Shown here piece by piece: positions 29,800 to 43,460 of a DNA stretch of 64,000 bases. The DNA lies in the NCBI GenBank assembly GCA_963971405.1, contig OZ020484.1, positions 21,948,001 through 22,012,000 of the forward strand, given 5' to 3'. Positions within the stretch are counted from its first letter, which is position 1. The number at the start of each line of letters is the position of its first letter. The DNA is from Psococerastis gibbosa (Eukaryota; Arthropoda; Insecta; Psocodea; Psocidae). Below the pieces are notes generated by a model, which did no database searches, was not told the DNA's origin, and worked only from the letters and a program-made list of their open reading frames with translations. The position numbers were made by a program, and so were the translations under genes.

Positions 29800-29838
<39 letters not shown>

Positions 29839-29957: not shown

Positions 29958-30853
29958 ATCAATAATAAGAACCGGTCCGAGTTCACTCGAACATGCTTTC
30001 CAATTTATCAAAATTATTAGATAGAGAAAATTAGTAATTTTATGGCAAATATTTTTCCTATGGTTAAATTTCCGATATCTCGGGGGGGGGGGGGGGGGGG
30101 GTTGTCCACCTGACGTCACTGGAAGTGAGGTAAATTCTCGATAGGTCAAACAAACACATTAATTACCACACAGCAATAATGGCAGGGCATGCAATGTATT
30201 TGAGCGCGAATTTTCTATCATTTTTTTCAAAAAATAATTTTTTGGGCAAAACCAAATATTTTTTGGGAAAGCAACCTATCCGGTTTCGTTACTCAATTTA
30301 ACACCTAAAACATGCTTGAAGGTAGAAATCATCGATAGAAAGGTTTCGCATTTTTTAGTCATTTTTTCATTAAAATTTAGTTATTTTTATTTTTTTTACC
30401 CCCCAGAAGCAAACTATCAAGGGGCAAGCGACCCCCCGCATTTTGTCAACATTAATAACGACTACAATCTACGAGAATTTAAAAGAAATCGTTGGAGCCG
30501 TTTATGAGAAATAATTTTTTTAGACGTTTTTGTGGAGTTTTTTGAAAATAAAACCCCCCCAAATTGAGTTAGCCCAAAAAAAAATGGTCCCGAGGTATGA
30601 TTTTTGTGAACCTACATGCCAAATTTCACTCAAATCCACCGAGTAGTTTGCCCGGAAATCGACGAACAGACAGACCGACCGACAGACCGACAGACCGACA
30701 GACCGACAGACCGACCGACAGACAGACATTTTGTAAAAACCACTTTTTTGGGTTCCTGGGACCTCAAAACGTGTAAATCCGTTGAAATCTCGGAATCGAA
30801 AATTTCGATCATCACAAAGCTTTCCTTATACTACGTATAAATTGGAAAGCAAA
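29958..30853. mobile_element. (CAGA)n-containing repeat, full copy 2
   Basis: It is directly head-to-tail with copy 1 and collinear along its length, with a longer G tract and a mixed CAGA/CCGA microsatellite at 30665-30727. It ends ATAAATTGGAAAGCAA. Confidence 0.85.
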
Positions 30854-36820: not shown

Positions 36821-36843
36821 ATGAATGAATGAATGAATGAATG
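36821..36843 (-). repeat. (CATT)n 3' tail of the helicase LINE
   Basis: On the minus strand the element ends in five to six CATT units, about 175 nt after the ORF3 stop and after an AT-rich 3' UTR. Short tandem 3' tails like this, rather than poly(A), are known in CR1/L2/I-type LINEs. The tail fixes the 3' boundary and shows the element arrived by reverse transcription. Confidence 0.85.
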
Positions 36844-37018
36844 TATTAAATATTTAGAACAATTTAAATACAAGAATTGTAAAGCCCCACATGGAGACCT
36901 ATAACAATTTACCCTACTCTAAAACTAAAGAAAAAGAAAAAAAATCAATTAGACTTAATTTAACTTATTAAACTACACTTATATATTAATAACAGATCTC
37001 TCATAAACACATAACAGT

Positions 37019-39967
37019 CTAGTCCACTATTTCAAATAAAGATTCCACCTCTTCCCGTCTCATCAGCCATTCCCGGACGAATTTGGAAAATTTATTTATT
37101 GACAGCGACCCAGGACAAATATTAAGTAAGTTAAATAATTTTGGTGCTATATATTGGTAGGATTTGGTAAAATTTGCTATGTATGCCCTTGGTACTACAA
37201 GGTGCTCAATTCTTCTAGTATTTGCTGGTCTGGGTCTCTGTACCATGTCCCCACTGATAGAGTAAAAAATTCGCAATGTCTTGTAAAAGAACAAGTGCCG
37301 CAGCGGGAATAAACCGAGAGACGCAAAGAGAGGGAATGATGGCCAAGTTCTAGGTTTTTTGACTATTGTTCTAATAAGGTATTTTTGGGTAACTACAAGT
37401 GAATTTAAATTTGTAACAAAGGTCCCACCCCACACTTGGATACCATACGCTAACCGAGATTCACAAAGTGAGTGGTATAGTTGGATTAAAATTTTTTGAG
37501 GGCAGACCGTGCGGAGGTAAAAAAGTTGTCTTAAAAAATTTCGACATTTTCCGTTTATCGATTTTAAGTGGCTGCTCCATTTCATATCACTGTCGAAGTG
37601 GACGCCAAGGTATTTCGTCGTTTGTGCTTTAGTGATAGCTGGGCATTGACAATTTGGATTTTGTAAGTTGCAATTATACGCATGGCATCTCACTTCGAGG
37701 GGCTCATCTATACTTCCTGTTCTTAGATTGTATGGCAGAAAACAGGTTTTACTAACATTAATTGTAAGGCCATGGATTTGGAACCAAGTGTTAAGATGTT
37801 GTAAATCCTCAGTCATAAACATTTGTATCTCATTCCAGTCTCTTGCAGAGTAGCAGAGTGCCGTGTCATCAGCGAAGCTAGTCAAAGTACCATGTAGCCG
37901 CAAGTTGCATAGTTGGTTAGTGTATAAAATAAATAATAATGGGCCTAAGATTGAGCCTTGTGGTACAGAACATAGTTGTTCCAAAGCGTCACTATCTACA
38001 AAACCAACTGTTCCACTTTTTTGAATTTGCAAACGTACTCTCTGAGTCCTCCCGATCAGATAGCTCTTGAACCACTCCCACGCTATTCCTCTTACCCCTG
38101 CATTCCATAAAATGTCTAGGAGCAAATTGTGTTCGACAGAATCAAAGGCACGGCTTATATCTAAGAACAAGCTGGCTGTTTTACGGCCTTTATTTAGAGA
38201 ATCGTATATGGGTCGGGTAAATTCTATTAACGCTAAATCTGTTCCTTTTCCTGCCCTAAACCCAAATTGATTTGAACTTATCCAATTATGTTTCGATAAA
38301 AAGTTGTTCAAGCGAGCTGCCATAAGTTTTTCTATGACTTTACTTGTTACATTGAGTAGACTTATAGGACGATATGACTTTGCAGAGCGGCGATCCCCTT
38401 TCTTATGCAATGGTATAACTATTGCTTCTTTCATTTTATTAGGAAATATTCCTTGTGAAAAACTGAGATTTATGATATGTGTAAGATAGGTAGTAATATG
38501 AGCCACAACATTTTTTAAGCAGTCTGTAGATAGGCCATCAGGACCAGCGGAGTTTTTATTTTTTAGTCCAGAAATAACTGTCATTACTTCATCGTGGGTA
38601 ACAGGCGATAAAAAAATAGACTGTTGTGTAGACTTTGAGTCCCACCCTGACATAGTGTGTTGGTTTAACGGTGGTTTTACTAACTGCTCCTTTAATTGCA
38701 ATGGTAGATTCGTAAACAGCCAGTTTAACTCATTTGCCACCAGCTTAGGATCAGAGATCGCTACTCCATCGTCATTTACAATTTCAATCGGTTGTTTATC
38801 CTTACTGCACACTCCCATTACTTCATTGATTACTTTCCACTGTTTTTTACTATCACCAGACGCTTCCGTAAACTTGTTGCTATAAAATGAATTTTTTTCC
38901 AGCTGAACTTGTTGCTTTATATATGTCTTTAAGAACTTTAGCCTCTCTTTACTCTCATAATTTAGAGGAATTCTCTTTTTAGAGTTTATAATTGCATATT
39001 TCTCGTTTATGAGGGCTTTAAGTTCCCGAGATAACCATGGCTTCCCCGGACTTCTGTATTTGGACATGCGTTTGGGTATAGTTGCCGCCTTCTGTGCCTG
39101 AATCATTTTATTCTCGAGTAGTTCGTAAGCGACATTAACATCCGTACAATTTAAAATTTCCTCAAAAGTAGTTACATTTACAATTGCCTTAAATCTATCC
39201 ATGTCAAGCTTTCGCACTACTTGCCTGGGATGATAATTTTGGACGACATCAGCATTAATGATAATGGAGGTCATATGATGATCAGTAACACCTAAGTCAG
39301 TAACAACACTCTCATGGATATATGCTAGCGAGCGTAAGTAGATATGATCTATACATGTGGCTGTTTGTTCAGTTATCCTTGTATGCTCATTTACGAGACT
39401 AGTAAAACCATTCATAGCCATTACTTCTTTGTACTTGTTCCCCTCTTCACAATCCCCCATTATATCAATGTTGATGTCGCCAATAATCAGAACGTTTTTA
39501 CATTTAATACGTTGTAAAAGATCATCCAGTTCGTCAGAAAATGCTGTCTTGTTGAATCTTTGCAGGCGATATACGGCCAAAATAGTTAAATTTGTTGAAC
39601 CTACTACGAGAGAAAGACGTTGTATGTCGGCTGTTCGAAAAGAGCAATCAACATGTTGTACATTTAGCCTTGTTTTGCAAAAAACAAACACCCCCCCAGC
39701 AGCATATCCCTCATTGCAGTTGTACCTAATAGGTTTTGTACCCATCCAGATTATATAGAGTAGAGCCTCAGCATTATATATCCATATTTCACTAAGAATT
39801 AATATATCAGGCCAAAATTTCCAATTTTGCATGATACTAACCAGGGTGTCAAAATTTGCCCGCATGCTACTAATATTAATGTGGCTGATAGTTAATCTCA
39901 ATTTAGAGCTTTGTAACAGTTTTTTACTGAATGGGCATATATCTGCATCTATATTAGAATCCAACAT
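37019..39967 (-). CDS. ORF3: AP endonuclease and reverse transcriptase of the LINE
   Basis: This protein nicks target DNA and copies the element RNA by target-primed reverse transcription. I place the start at the ATG at 39967 (MLDSNIDADI), which overlaps the ORF2 stop by 14 nt; an upstream ATG at 40084 gives 39 more residues lying inside the helicase frame. The product is 982 residues. The endonuclease keeps its catalytic set: Asn31 in HINISS, Glu60 in LSEIW, Tyr133, Asp164/Asn166 in GDIN, Asp207 in IDHI and Asp229/His230 in TDHH. The RT has the fingers motif SYRPISLLN, FLDISRAFD (Asp603, Asp609), PQGSILGPLLF and FADD (Asp700, Asp701), then the thumb region with TKYLGVHFD. There is no RNase H domain. 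The frame is uninterrupted, suggesting recent activity. Confidence 0.95.
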   Translation of the reverse strand: MLDSNIDADICPFSKKLLQSSKLRLTISHINISSMRANFDTLVSIMQNWKFWPDILILSEIWIYNAEALLYIIWMGTKPIRYNCNEGYAAGGVFVFCKTRLNVQHVDCSFRTADIQRLSLVVGSTNLTILAVYRLQRFNKTAFSDELDDLLQRIKCKNVLIIGDINIDIMGDCEEGNKYKEVMAMNGFTSLVNEHTRITEQTATCIDHIYLRSLAYIHESVVTDLGVTDHHMTSIIINADVVQNYHPRQVVRKLDMDRFKAIVNVTTFEEILNCTDVNVAYELLENKMIQAQKAATIPKRMSKYRSPGKPWLSRELKALINEKYAIINSKKRIPLNYESKERLKFLKTYIKQQVQLEKNSFYSNKFTEASGDSKKQWKVINEVMGVCSKDKQPIEIVNDDGVAISDPKLVANELNWLFTNLPLQLKEQLVKPPLNQHTMSGWDSKSTQQSIFLSPVTHDEVMTVISGLKNKNSAGPDGLSTDCLKNVVAHITTYLTHIINLSFSQGIFPNKMKEAIVIPLHKKGDRRSAKSYRPISLLNVTSKVIEKLMAARLNNFLSKHNWISSNQFGFRAGKGTDLALIEFTRPIYDSLNKGRKTASLFLDISRAFDSVEHNLLLDILWNAGVRGIAWEWFKSYLIGRTQRVRLQIQKSGTVGFVDSDALEQLCSVPQGSILGPLLFILYTNQLCNLRLHGTLTSFADDTALCYSARDWNEIQMFMTEDLQHLNTWFQIHGLTINVSKTCFLPYNLRTGSIDEPLEVRCHAYNCNLQNPNCQCPAITKAQTTKYLGVHFDSDMKWSSHLKSINGKCRNFLRQLFYLRTVCPQKILIQLYHSLCESRLAYGIQVWGGTFVTNLNSLVVTQKYLIRTIVKKPRTWPSFPLFASLGLFPLRHLFFYKTLRIFYSISGDMVQRPRPANTRRIEHLVVPRAYIANFTKSYQYIAPKLFNLLNICPGSLSINKFSKFVREWLMRREEVESLFEIVD

Positions 39968-41450
39968 TTGTGGGGGATGTAGCACCACAACGAAAAGAAA
40001 TTGCATCCATGCTACGGTACTTCTTACTGGTAGGCAGTGACTCAGAGTACTTAGTGCCCTTTGCCTGTAGCAAGCGTTCATCATGCCATATTTTCAGTTT
40101 CTTTTCGCTCAGCTGCCGTGCCCTGTTTATTAATGAGCTTACCAGATCCCTCTCATTAGTCGTTAGGTACTGGAATGACTTAGTATGGCGGGATATAGCC
40201 ACTATAGAGTGGGCTATACTATTGTACACTTCAAGAGGTTTAGGATTTATTCTGCACAGTAGGACATGTTCTTCAGTTTTACCCTGACTTTCATGTATTG
40301 TGCATATTTGTAGTTTACCTGGGCACTTACCCTCAAGCGCTTTCACTAATTGTCGCTTTTCTGCCTGGGTAAAAGTCAGAACAAGTGTCCCCGATTTTAA
40401 CTGGAAAAACTCTCCATTTACCAAAGTAGGGGAAATTGATCTTAAAATGTTATTGTGGCTTATAATATCCGGATATTGTTTTGCCAGTGCATAGGTCACA
40501 TCGACAGGGCAACGTTTAGTTGTCATTAAAAATAACTGCGGTGTGCAGAACCCATTGACATTATGAAAATGTACCTTAAGGGGACTTCTTTCAATGTAAG
40601 GTATTTGCTTCGTATCGCCCAATAATAATATCTCCTTTGCTCCTGTTAAATAGGCTATAAACCCAATATAACCAGCATGACCTAGGGAAACCTCATCAAT
40701 GAATACCCTTTCATATTTTTTCCCCGTCTGATTTATTATGAACGATGACACTGTTCGATAATCCTGCATCAGCCTCTTGTTGTCCCTTAAATTGTAACGC
40801 CGGGCAACTGCTTTGCGAATATCAGCTACTGCTTCTCTGGTGTGTGTTAAAATGAGATCCTTATTAGGATGATGTTGCTGTATTATAAAATGAGATTTCC
40901 CTGACCCTGGGCAACCCTCAACCAATGTGATTTTTGGCATCTGACAATTTTGAAGGGGAATTTTGGACACCACTTGAGTTAACTCGGCATTGAGCATTAA
41001 TTCCGTTTTCTCTGTTACTAGGACGTATTTTGCTGAGGTCACGAATTTCTGTGTTTGAGTGTTGAAATGAACATAACCTTCATTTAATGTGTACCCCATT
41101 CTGTACACAGTATTAGTTTTAATCAGGTACTTTTGAGTCTCATTATTGAATAAATTTATTTTCCGTGACCTAATTAGGCTAATAGCACTAGCCGATGAAT
41201 TGTTTACGGGTGAAAACGCTGATGCTAATAACTGACTGTATTGAACGGCGTTTGCACAGTCAGCATTTAGAAGTAGGTTACGCAGTTCTATCATACTGTT
41301 GATATAAAACTCGGAGTGGGATTTTGGCACCATGTACCCTGTAGGGTTTGGCACTGATAATTTCTTCGGGGCTGGGATTTGTAGAAAATCCAGGTTTCTG
41401 TAGCCTTTATTAAAGAAGACAAAGTAAAGGTTTTCGTGTTTTAAAACTGT
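39954..41450 (-). CDS. ORF2 C-terminal part: superfamily 1 helicase of the alphavirus-like RNA-virus type (LINE)
   Basis: All SF1 motifs are visible, numbered from the GTG at 41354. Walker A is GCPGSGKS (147-154). The Walker B acid pair is in FIDEV (220-221). Motif III is GDTKQ (246-250), motif IV TTKRCP (278-283), motif V TIHESQG (352-358) and motif VI VAISRH (385-390). TKRCP-x-DV, TIHESQG and VAISRH are typical of helicases of alphavirus-like RNA viruses (Viral_helicase1) rather than of cellular Pif1/UvrD or Helitron enzymes. The expected activity is NTP-driven unwinding of RNA or an RNA:DNA hybrid. The frame is open from 41450 without an early ATG, so translation probably depends on the preceding frame. 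Its stop overlaps the ORF3 start by 14 nt. No key residue is missing. Its function in retrotransposition is inference. Confidence 0.93.
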   Translation of the reverse strand, partial: TVLKHENLYFVFFNKGYRNLDFLQIPAPKKLSVPNPTGYMVPKSHSEFYINSMIELRNLLLNADCANAVQYSQLLASAFSPVNNSSASAISLIRSRKINLFNNETQKYLIKTNTVYRMGYTLNEGYVHFNTQTQKFVTSAKYVLVTEKTELMLNAELTQVVSKIPLQNCQMPKITLVEGCPGSGKSHFIIQQHHPNKDLILTHTREAVADIRKAVARRYNLRDNKRLMQDYRTVSSFIINQTGKKYERVFIDEVSLGHAGYIGFIAYLTGAKEILLLGDTKQIPYIERSPLKVHFHNVNGFCTPQLFLMTTKRCPVDVTYALAKQYPDIISHNNILRSISPTLVNGEFFQLKSGTLVLTFTQAEKRQLVKALEGKCPGKLQICTIHESQGKTEEHVLLCRINPKPLEVYNSIAHSIVAISRHTKSFQYLTTNERDLVSSLINRARQLSEKKLKIWHDERLLQAKGTKYSESLPTSKKYRSMDAISFRCGATSPTNVGF

Positions 41451-41976
41451 TTAATACGTCTAAAGCTGGAAAATCTAGGTACCCAGTCATGGTGTATATA
41501 TCAATTCCAATGACCAATGGATAGTTTTGGGATGCCCAGTGGTCCAGAGAGCTAATTAGACAAGCCCAATCTGCCATGCCGCATATCGAGTCGCTTGTTT
41601 CGAGCAGTAAAAAAATATTTTTCAGAGATGAGCAACACTGCCTCAGGGGCAGTTTCGACTTGTGGCAAATTTGGGTGAAGTTGGCTAGTTTCTCCTTGTT
41701 TATTGTGCGATTTTTTAAAAGTTTGGACATCCCTTGAGAAAGCCTGTATTTTTTATTTGTACAATCATAGTGGGCAAAGCCTATTGTGATATCGACACTG
41801 TCTCCATAGTTATCCACTAAGTTAACCTTACTCTTAGGGGTGGAGGCGTTGGAAGAGAATTTAGATATTGAGTTTAACAAACTTTCAAAAACTATAGGTT
41901 CATTTTGCTTGAGCCCCCGTTTTCTATTTGGTAAGAAGAAAAGCACATTATTCTTGAGAATGTCAGTTAGGGCCAT
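41410..41976 (-). CDS. ORF2 N-terminal part, domain of unknown function (LINE)
   Basis: I do not recognise this domain. The chosen ATG at 41976 sits 14 nt before the end of the extended ORF1, so the frame starts MALTDILKNN and runs 188 residues. A longer open stretch upstream would need a non-ATG start. It has a basic patch near residue 20, several scattered cysteines and a hydrophobic C-terminal stretch (YPLVIGIDIYTMTGYLDFPALD). I see no methyltransferase or protease motif. The frame ends at 41410, while the helicase frame is already open from 41450, so the two overlap by 41 nt around a TTTTAAAA run at 41439-41446. The helicase frame has no nearby ATG. I therefore infer that both were one protein of about 680 residues, split here by a +1 change. 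Confidence 0.7.
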   Translation of the reverse strand: MALTDILKNNVLFFLPNRKRGLKQNEPIVFESLLNSISKFSSNASTPKSKVNLVDNYGDSVDITIGFAHYDCTNKKYRLSQGMSKLLKNRTINKEKLANFTQICHKSKLPLRQCCSSLKNIFLLLETSDSICGMADWACLISSLDHWASQNYPLVIGIDIYTMTGYLDFPALDVLNSFKTRKPLLCLL

Positions 41977-42103
41977 AGTTAGTTTTATCAATAAGTTGCC
42001 CCAGAGCTTTTAAATAGCTTGGGCATTCAGGAGAGCTGACCTTGTGCTTGAAGTCCGTATAATTATTCCTTTTACAATTTACACAGGTTGGGTTTTTATC
42101 ATT
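41963..42103 (-). pseudogene. Frame-shifted C-terminus of ORF1 with a third zinc knuckle
   Basis: Reading on from the ORF1 stop in the +1 frame gives 46 further codons. They contain C-x2-C, a histidine about ten residues later and another Cys-Pro, the form of the third knuckle seen in many Jockey/R1/I-type gag proteins. The frame ends in TGA at 41963-41965, inside a 14-nt overlap with the ATG of ORF2. This exact abutment argues that it is the true end of ORF1. Either one base has been inserted around the TAA codon at 42102-42104, or ribosomes shift +1 there. An indel in this copy is the simpler reading. Confidence 0.75.
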
Positions 42104-43229
42104 ACTTTCTAGTTTCTTTACAAGACTTTATGTCATGGCCCACTGTACCACAATGACCACATGTTGATTTTTCCTGCTTACAGAATTTGGCTGAGTGAGC
42201 GAAAGCCTGACATTTATAACATCTCGAAATCGCTACATAATCTTTAACTCTACAGGCTGACCAATCTATATACACTCGATTTTTCTCCACTAAATATTTT
42301 CTAGCTCTTGGTGAGCACTCGACAATCCAATGAACGGTATTTTTACCTTTAGGGCCTGTTTTGAATAGGGGGATGATCTCCGGCTTATCGCAGTTTCCCT
42401 GCATGTTCCTGTTTAAAATTTCGTCCACCATGACTTCTTTCGAGATGTAGCTGGGCACATTGTAGATAATTATCCTTGGCTTTCTTTCCGATGGCTCCGA
42501 GACGTCTAGCTCGGGATCTTGCTGGGCGATCTTTTGCAGGACTAACTTTTTATCCTCTGAGGGATCTAGCACTAAAAGAACTCCACCTCCAGAAATGTTG
42601 ACCGCCCTCTTTATTTTAAGGTTTTGATGAGCCGGTATGGCCTTTCGCAGGGACTCACGTACCTTCTTGTTTGCCTCTTGGTCATTTCCGCCATTTCTTT
42701 GTTTCTGCTTTACTATTATGACGCTGTCCTTTGGCTGCTGTAATTTATGCTCTTGGATAACCCTCCCCTTGCTTTGGGGCTGTTTCAGGGCATCTGCAAA
42801 TGTAATTTTCCCTGCAGGAGGTTTATTTACCTGATCGGCCATGTTTTTCAGGCATGATGTAAGGCCATCCAGGTGCTCATACGTAGGTCCAATCATTTGG
42901 CACATTGTTTTTGCCCTCGTTTCAATTTTGGCTAAGTGCACGGTCATTTCTTGTATAACTCCGCATAAGATGTCGAAGTCAGCTCTCAGGATTTTTCTCT
43001 TTTCGAATTCGGCGCTGGCCCAAGCCTTTGCCGATTCCACGGCACCCGCCATGACTGAGATGTCCTCTTCAAAGTCCTGGGCAATACTGCTCATGTCTCT
43101 GATTAAAACCTCACTTGGAGGACCCATTTCCTCAAATTCGGCCACAAGGCCCTTTGGCAAAGTGTCGAAAACTCCGCTTGTCATTAACCGAGGAAACACT
43201 GATGACAGAACAATACCACACACATTCAC
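42102..43229 (-). CDS. ORF1: gag-like nucleic-acid-binding protein with CCHC zinc knuckles (LINE)
   Basis: This 375-residue frame is the gag-like ORF1 of the LINE. Residues 50-150 are charged and probably helical. Residues about 245-335 resemble the region preceding the knuckles in Jockey/R1-type gag proteins (a VPSYISKE-like motif, then IDWSACRVKDY). Two CCHC knuckles follow, at about 337-350 (CYKCQAFAHSAKFC) and 357-370 (CGHCGTVGHDIKSC). Such proteins bind the element RNA and form the ribonucleoprotein. The frame stops at TAA-TGA-TAA just after the second knuckle, but a third knuckle continues in the +1 frame (next entry), so the ancestral protein was longer. The first ATG of the frame is at 43229; an internal ATG about 16 codons later is also possible. 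It is the promoter-proximal ORF of the element. Confidence 0.85.
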   Translation of the reverse strand: MNVCGIVLSSVFPRLMTSGVFDTLPKGLVAEFEEMGPPSEVLIRDMSSIAQDFEEDISVMAGAVESAKAWASAEFEKRKILRADFDILCGVIQEMTVHLAKIETRAKTMCQMIGPTYEHLDGLTSCLKNMADQVNKPPAGKITFADALKQPQSKGRVIQEHKLQQPKDSVIIVKQKQRNGGNDQEANKKVRESLRKAIPAHQNLKIKRAVNISGGGVLLVLDPSEDKKLVLQKIAQQDPELDVSEPSERKPRIIIYNVPSYISKEVMVDEILNRNMQGNCDKPEIIPLFKTGPKGKNTVHWIVECSPRARKYLVEKNRVYIDWSACRVKDYVAISRCYKCQAFAHSAKFCKQEKSTCGHCGTVGHDIKSCKETRK

Positions 43230-43460
43230 AGCGGTCTAATCTAAAAAATAAATGCGCGATTTGCGGACTAACTAAAACTAGGTACGGTAACGTAAACACG
43301 TCCTTACTGCACCGCGGTTACTACGTGTATATAGATTTCTGGTGTATCGCCGGCATGTCGAGGGGAAACCTGCGACGTATATATGTTGAAGTAGACTCTG
43401 GAGCCCATTTGCTCCCATGCCAAATTTCTCAGCGAATCAGTGGCGGTGTGTACGGGGGAT
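43230..43460 (-). promoter_or_regulatory. Presumed 5' UTR and internal promoter region of the helicase LINE
   Basis: The roughly 230 bp upstream of ORF1 are richer in CpG than the flanking AT-rich DNA and carry no gene. LINEs of this structure usually have an internal promoter in the 5' UTR. The assignment rests on position and composition only. The exact 5' end is not visible. Confidence 0.4.

Follow-up and report, generated by a model that had tools for sequence, protein, structure and literature searches.

A Three-ORF LINE in the Psococerastis gibbosa Genome

The window analyzed here (the whole stretch of 64,000 nucleotides from Psococerastis gibbosa, contig OZ020484.1, positions 21,948,001 to 22,012,000) carries on its minus strand a complete long interspersed nuclear element (LINE) of ~6.5 kb (36821..43322), which belongs to what we call family A, a family whose copies share a 5′ terminus and have 3′ tails of variable length. 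The element is a young, multicopy and recently active LINE of the apurinic/apyrimidinic endonuclease (APE) type, with three open reading frames (ORFs) encoding a gag-like protein, a protein that joins an X domain with a predicted macrodomain-like fold to a superfamily 1 (SF1) helicase, and an APE endonuclease-reverse transcriptase (RT). We are highly confident of this anatomy and of the type of helicase. A first-pass annotation of the window had described a LINE with gag, helicase, APE-RT and a (CATT)n tail, which is borne out by the translated frames, the Pfam matches and the shared ends. That annotation took the element as far as 43460; its 5′ end lies instead at 43326-43322, where three other copies (L032, L036 and L042) start no more than 4 bases apart and the flanks differ.

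ORF1 (42105..43229; this and all other features of the element are on the minus strand) is gag-like, with two CX2CX4HX4C knuckles that are visible by eye and weak in Pfam (zf-CCHC_4, E = 0.086). Its frame is broken near ~42102 in the window copy, and is 421 amino acids (aa) long, stop to stop, in L032, L036 and L042. An ORF1-type stop and the AUG of ORF2 overlap by 14 nt (ATGGCCCTAACTGA, 41963..41976), as they do in L032. ORF2 begins with the X domain (41356..41892), open to 41410 and followed in the window copy by a frame break, and ends with the viral SF1 helicase (39954..41354); a separate frame of 193 aa at 41991-41410 is its N-terminal domain. In this copy the helicase ORF is split between ~41410 and 41354, and it measures 685-687 aa, stop to stop, in L031-L034. 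The ORF2 stop and the AUG of ORF3 again overlap by 14 nt (ATGTTGGATTCTAA, 39954..39967), also in L032. ORF3 (37019..39967) is an open frame of 982 aa with matches to Exo_endo_phos (E = 4.1e-07) and RVT_1 (E = 2.1e-33), and the presence of APE endonuclease and RT in one ORF, with a gag-like ORF upstream, places the element among the APE-type LINEs. No RNase H match was found in this RT with Pfam. The (CATT)n tail occupies 36821..36843.

The APE-RT is therefore intact, as first proposed, and the tight order and overlaps of the genes also stand, but the gag and helicase frames of the window copy are broken; the breaks are absent from several other copies. The short AUG/stop overlaps, which in a second family, B (see below), measure 17 nt between ORF1 and ORF2 (L037) and 8 nt between ORF2 and ORF3 (L037 and L040), fit stop/restart translation, by which ORF2 and ORF3 may be expressed.

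The Helicase Belongs to the Element and Is Multicopy

Copies were sought in the same genome (G000). The counts are lower bounds, 91 of 214 candidates having been scored in the helicase search (where a missing helicase match is no proof of absence), 47 of 8189 in the family A RT search, and 47 of 6724 in the RT search that gave family F (see below). Six further full-length helicase copies (L031-L036) were found, with 98.6-99.3% DNA identity to the window element over the aligned lengths. Two of them (L033 and L034, ~124 kb apart on G000:C21) are the same LINE insertion with an identical 3′ flank, and probably represent one insertion duplicated with its surroundings by segmental duplication. The (CATT)n tails of family A copies are of unequal length and are followed by different flanking sequence, and dispersed copies show the 5′ truncation and simple 3′ tail expected of an APE-type LINE. 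Among seven copies there were no convincing target-site duplications, the longest shared flank strings being 4-6 nt. Copies of family A differ too little among themselves to inform on selection.

The first-pass annotation had warned that RT copies consistently lacking the helicase would point to a chance insertion. All eight scored RT matches of at least 88% identity that start at query residues 1-10, including that of the window, have a helicase match directly upstream (five whole, three 5′-truncated). Of five RT matches that start at residues 69-90, four have the helicase upstream; the fifth (L055, C3:39740345), whose RT looks 5′-truncated, has no helicase in the 0.8 kb upstream that was examined. 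RT matches beginning further in were counted as 5′-truncated, as is usual for LINEs. The helicase is thus an integral, multicopy part of the LINE.

ORF2 Is a Conserved Two-Domain Protein

The minus-strand frame 41354-39954 contains all six of the motifs originally named (GCPGSGKS, FIDEV, GDTKQ, TKRCP, TIHESQG and VAISRH). The proposal that the helicase is alphavirus-like held up: the frame matches Pfam Viral_helicase1 (E = 2.1e-33), and among solved structures those of tobamovirus helicases are closest to it in sequence (E = 2e-31). Domain, motifs and tobamo-type fold together indicate an SF1 helicase of the alphavirus supergroup, virga/tobamo-like in type. The X domain appears macrodomain-like by predicted fold, although none of the 25 members of the ORF2 alignment matched Pfam Macro with E values up to 10 allowed and the HMMER filters enabled. 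The order X-helicase occurs in hepatitis E and rubella viruses. Nineteen free-standing ORF2 relatives of 633-667 aa (P0001-P0019), from metagenome contigs, keep both domains, and their helicase motif residues are invariant. ORF2 is thus conserved as a protein of two domains; its helicase half belongs to the virga/tobamovirus type. These relatives probably also belong to LINEs, to judge from their free-standing ORFs on contigs of 2-6 kb. A scan of IMG/VR with the ORF2 alignment gave 41 pattern stretches and no confirmed relative.

Discordant Trees for RT and Helicase

In family B, represented by L037 and L040, which match each other at 99.1% over 6080 bases, the gene order is that of family A. 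Between the two families, identity is 45-46% in gag, 45% in X and 58-64% in the helicase, but only 26% in the RT. For the helicase pair with 64% aa identity, differences at the three codon positions number 137/96/261 over 448 codons; nonsynonymous divergence (dN) is 0.30, and synonymous divergence (dS) is saturated and not computable.

Among the matches scored, the RT nearest to that of A is family D (four matches, 46-48%), while those nearest to B are E (four matches, 42%) and F (ten matches, 38%). No gene of the gag-X-helicase half was found upstream of the D RT at three of the four loci (L051, L053 and L054), nor at the one locus examined of the four for E (L056) and of the ten for F (L057), with 2.4-3.8 kb inspected at each. 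At two of the three D loci there is a different small ORF1 instead, and the E and F loci each have a small ORF1 without similarity to gag; LINE ORF1s are variable. The small ORF1 of D at L053:2791-3276 matches Baculo_FP_2nd (1e-10). The ten F matches have open frames of 990 aa, and eight of them score identically.

Comparison of the RT and helicase topologies, as the first-pass annotation had suggested, revealed a conflict. The RT tree contained 40 of 54 RT homologues (P0021-P0060; P0061-P0074 were left out) and six sequences from this genome, and a smaller one contained 14 of the 54 with the same six; F was absent from both, E was represented by a core piece covering 46% of columns, and family C (see below) lay on a long branch. 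RTs of A and D were paired (100/100), as were those of B and E (100/98), and a single RT clade of A and B was rejected (ΔlnL 435; approximately unbiased [AU] test, p = 6.7e-62). In the ORF2 tree (22 homologues, three sequences from this genome, and five of six viral sequences, P0082 being left out), A, B and P0001-P0003 formed one group (100/100), within which A joined P0001/P0002 (97/96) and B joined P0003 (94/90). Because the RT trees pair A with D and B with E and reject A plus B, while gag and helicase are common to A and B, the gag-X-helicase part behaves as a cassette. Very probably, then, the gag-ORF2 and RT halves of A and B have different histories, the 5′ half being a cassette that has become attached to RTs of two or more unrelated lineages. 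The placements within the ORF2 group indicate that the exchange that underlies A and B is an ancient event, possibly older than this genome.

A Chimera of Families A and B

One locus, L042 (G000:C2:2252613-2258384), records a recent exchange between A and B. It starts at the A 5′ end and leaves A in mid-helicase; from there on its sequence is that of B, with the final codons of ORF2, the RT and the (TTA)n tail of that family. The A-derived helicase is cut before what we take to be motif II. A shorter fragment, L041 (C21:1502137-1504789), has the same junction; of the two loci, L042 alone shows the gag part. The L042 junction could most simply be explained by template jumping in the course of reverse transcription.

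A Helicase-Ulp1 Fusion

A third family, C, is represented by a single 1130-aa frame (L039:2686-6075; G000:C21:242185-245574) that combines an N terminus that looks coiled-coil-like by eye, the X domain and viral helicase (35-36% identical to A), and a C-terminal Ulp1-type protease (Peptidase_C48, E = 1.5e-12). The frame is overlapped by a broken APE-RT frame. Family C aligns with the free-standing ORFs across X and helicase jointly (71-74% of the 831-residue query). The Ulp1-bearing form was seen at this one locus among the matches scored.

Other Observations

Arrays at G000:C14:20.23-20.75 Mb and C3:25.65-25.89 Mb (L043 and L044) are made of units, 3393 bases long in L044, with a decayed helicase-like stretch (31-32% identity, internal stops). 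Four 3′ parts of family A RTs (96-97%) lie inside or next to the C3 array region (G000:C3:25593232-25837651). In the window itself there are (ACAG)n microsatellites at 29800-29838 and 30666-30728.

Origin and Possible Role of the Cassette

The explanation that we favor overall, and consider on balance probable, is that an arthropod virga-like virus was the source from which a LINE captured the X-helicase block, part of a replicase of the alphavirus supergroup. The ORF2 protein would then act with gag on the element RNA in a ribonucleoprotein (RNP), most likely stripping double-stranded RNA (dsRNA) and host silencing factors, and would secondarily ease reverse transcription; cassettes would swap partners by template jumping during target-primed reverse transcription. 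Should the macrodomain-like assignment prove correct, what the LINE captured would have been a block of a replicase and not a lone helicase.

One other reading is that an endogenous viral fragment came to lie beside LINE genes by chance. The six additional full-length copies of the helicase, of which two go back to a single duplicated insertion, have the same order, shared ends and mostly open helicase frames; together with the linkage of helicase to RT, they make this reading extremely unlikely, and we rejected it. Another possibility is that the ancestor shared by the A and B RTs already had gag and helicase, and that D, E and F no longer do because of loss or replacement; each of these families could have replaced its ORF1. 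The RT is normally the slower-evolving part of a LINE, yet the resemblance between A and B is closer in gag and helicase than in RT; at least two replacements would be required, and L042 demonstrates that exchange happens. Such vertical inheritance is therefore very unlikely. A stronger case can be made that A/B, family C and the metagenomic ORFs each took helicases from related viruses: the C frame is built differently (coiled coil, X, helicase, Ulp1) and lies on a long branch, and PMC5563155, in the portions available, argues that the TRAS and Jockey helicases of other LINEs arose independently. However, the alignment of C with the free-standing ORFs spans both X and helicase, and in a tree that does not contain the nearest viruses a 100/98 branch separates 25 non-viral sequences from the five viral ones. 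On this evidence, independent captures seem rather unlikely.

As to function, the helicase could be a dedicated cofactor of the RT, unwinding template RNA or stripping RNA from the cDNA hybrid in place of RNase H, as the first-pass annotation had supposed. According to work cited in the accessible text of PMC5563155, which proposes co-operation with the RT, both dsRNA and RNA-DNA duplexes are unwound by SF1 helicases of viruses, and the window RT has no RNase H match. However, the sister RT without a helicase (D, at L052) also has none, so that lack of RNase H does not go hand in hand with having the helicase, and replacement of RNase H was rejected as an argument. The cassette has, moreover, changed RT lineage, which fits a role with gag in the RNP better than one as a dedicated RT cofactor, and helicase-less F (upstream DNA examined at one of ten loci) has many open copies. 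We therefore regard a dedicated RT cofactor as unlikely, although unwinding of template or hybrid by the helicase is possible. The cassette retains gag while its RT partner changes, and LINEs that lack it are present in this genome as many open copies; for these reasons our tentative preference, held with somewhat less than even confidence, is for an anti-silencing role of ORF2 on the gag/RNP side. The weak silencing suppression by a TRAS helicase in Nicotiana leaves, recounted in the available part of PMC5563155, points in the same direction.

A bolder form of the favored explanation, which we put forward as doubtful, is that the replicase block (macro-like X plus SF1 helicase) behind a LINE gag is a portable anti-host-defense cassette, traded among unrelated RT lineages by template jumping and once extended with a Ulp1-type SUMO protease. 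If true, LINE evolution here would be modular in the manner of viral accessory genes. With a cassette common to far-diverged RTs, nearest RT kin without it, and a recent junction preserved in L042, modular LINE exchange can be traced within one genome. The separate two-domain ORF2, the helicase-less sister families and the helicase-truncated chimera also provide, in that genome, a natural set of comparisons for addressing a question now ten years old, namely what use a viral helicase is to a LINE.

Comparison with Known Systems

The first-pass annotation knew of no capture of alpha-like virus genes by a LINE, but viral SF1 helicases in LINEs were published for TRAS in 2015 (PMC4686597) and for Jockey-like elements in 2017 (PMC5563155), and are reviewed in PMC6338049; the following comparisons rest on the accessible parts of these papers. 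The Jockey-like elements of Nilaparvata lugens, other Hemiptera and Orthoptera, compared by description only, have a viral SF1 helicase ORF upstream of the APE-RT ORF, and A and B likewise have a separate helicase ORF that overlaps the RT ORF. The overlap is 2 nt in one N. lugens contig, as against 14 nt in A and 8 nt in B, and the helicase ORF there is ORF1 with a single helicase domain; for these elements the available text mentions neither a separate gag ORF nor a macro-like domain, nor does it describe discordance of RT and helicase, a chimera or a Ulp1 fusion (PMC5563155). TRAS/R1 LINEs of Lepidoptera also carry a tobamo/virga-like SF1 helicase, but as the C terminus of the RT protein in the R1 clade, whereas that of the window LINE, whose RT ORF has no C-terminal helicase domain, is in its own ORF upstream; the TRAS helicase is preceded by a spacer of >300 aa without known similarity, which may or may not match the X domain (PMC4686597). 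A further difference from TRAS/R1 is that the insertions of the window LINE that were seen have unrelated flanks. Compared with a tobamovirus or arthropod virga-like replicase, the helicase is here without methyltransferase or polymerase, in a free-standing ORF inside a LINE.

Family C shares with NeSL and Utopia LINEs a Ulp1-like protease, which in those elements is N-terminal in a protein with a restriction-like endonuclease and in C is C-terminal; the word "helicase" does not occur in the main text of PMC4640811, which describes them. Within the literature surveyed, from which most subscription journals and preprints were outside coverage and some papers were accessible in part, no report was found of the macro-like domain, of RT/cassette discordance or of a helicase-Ulp1 fusion. 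A helicase-bearing LINE has thus been known in kind since 2015-2017, and the central claim is already published; what is new, as far as we have seen, is the domain make-up, the exchange of the 5′ cassette and the Ulp1 variant.
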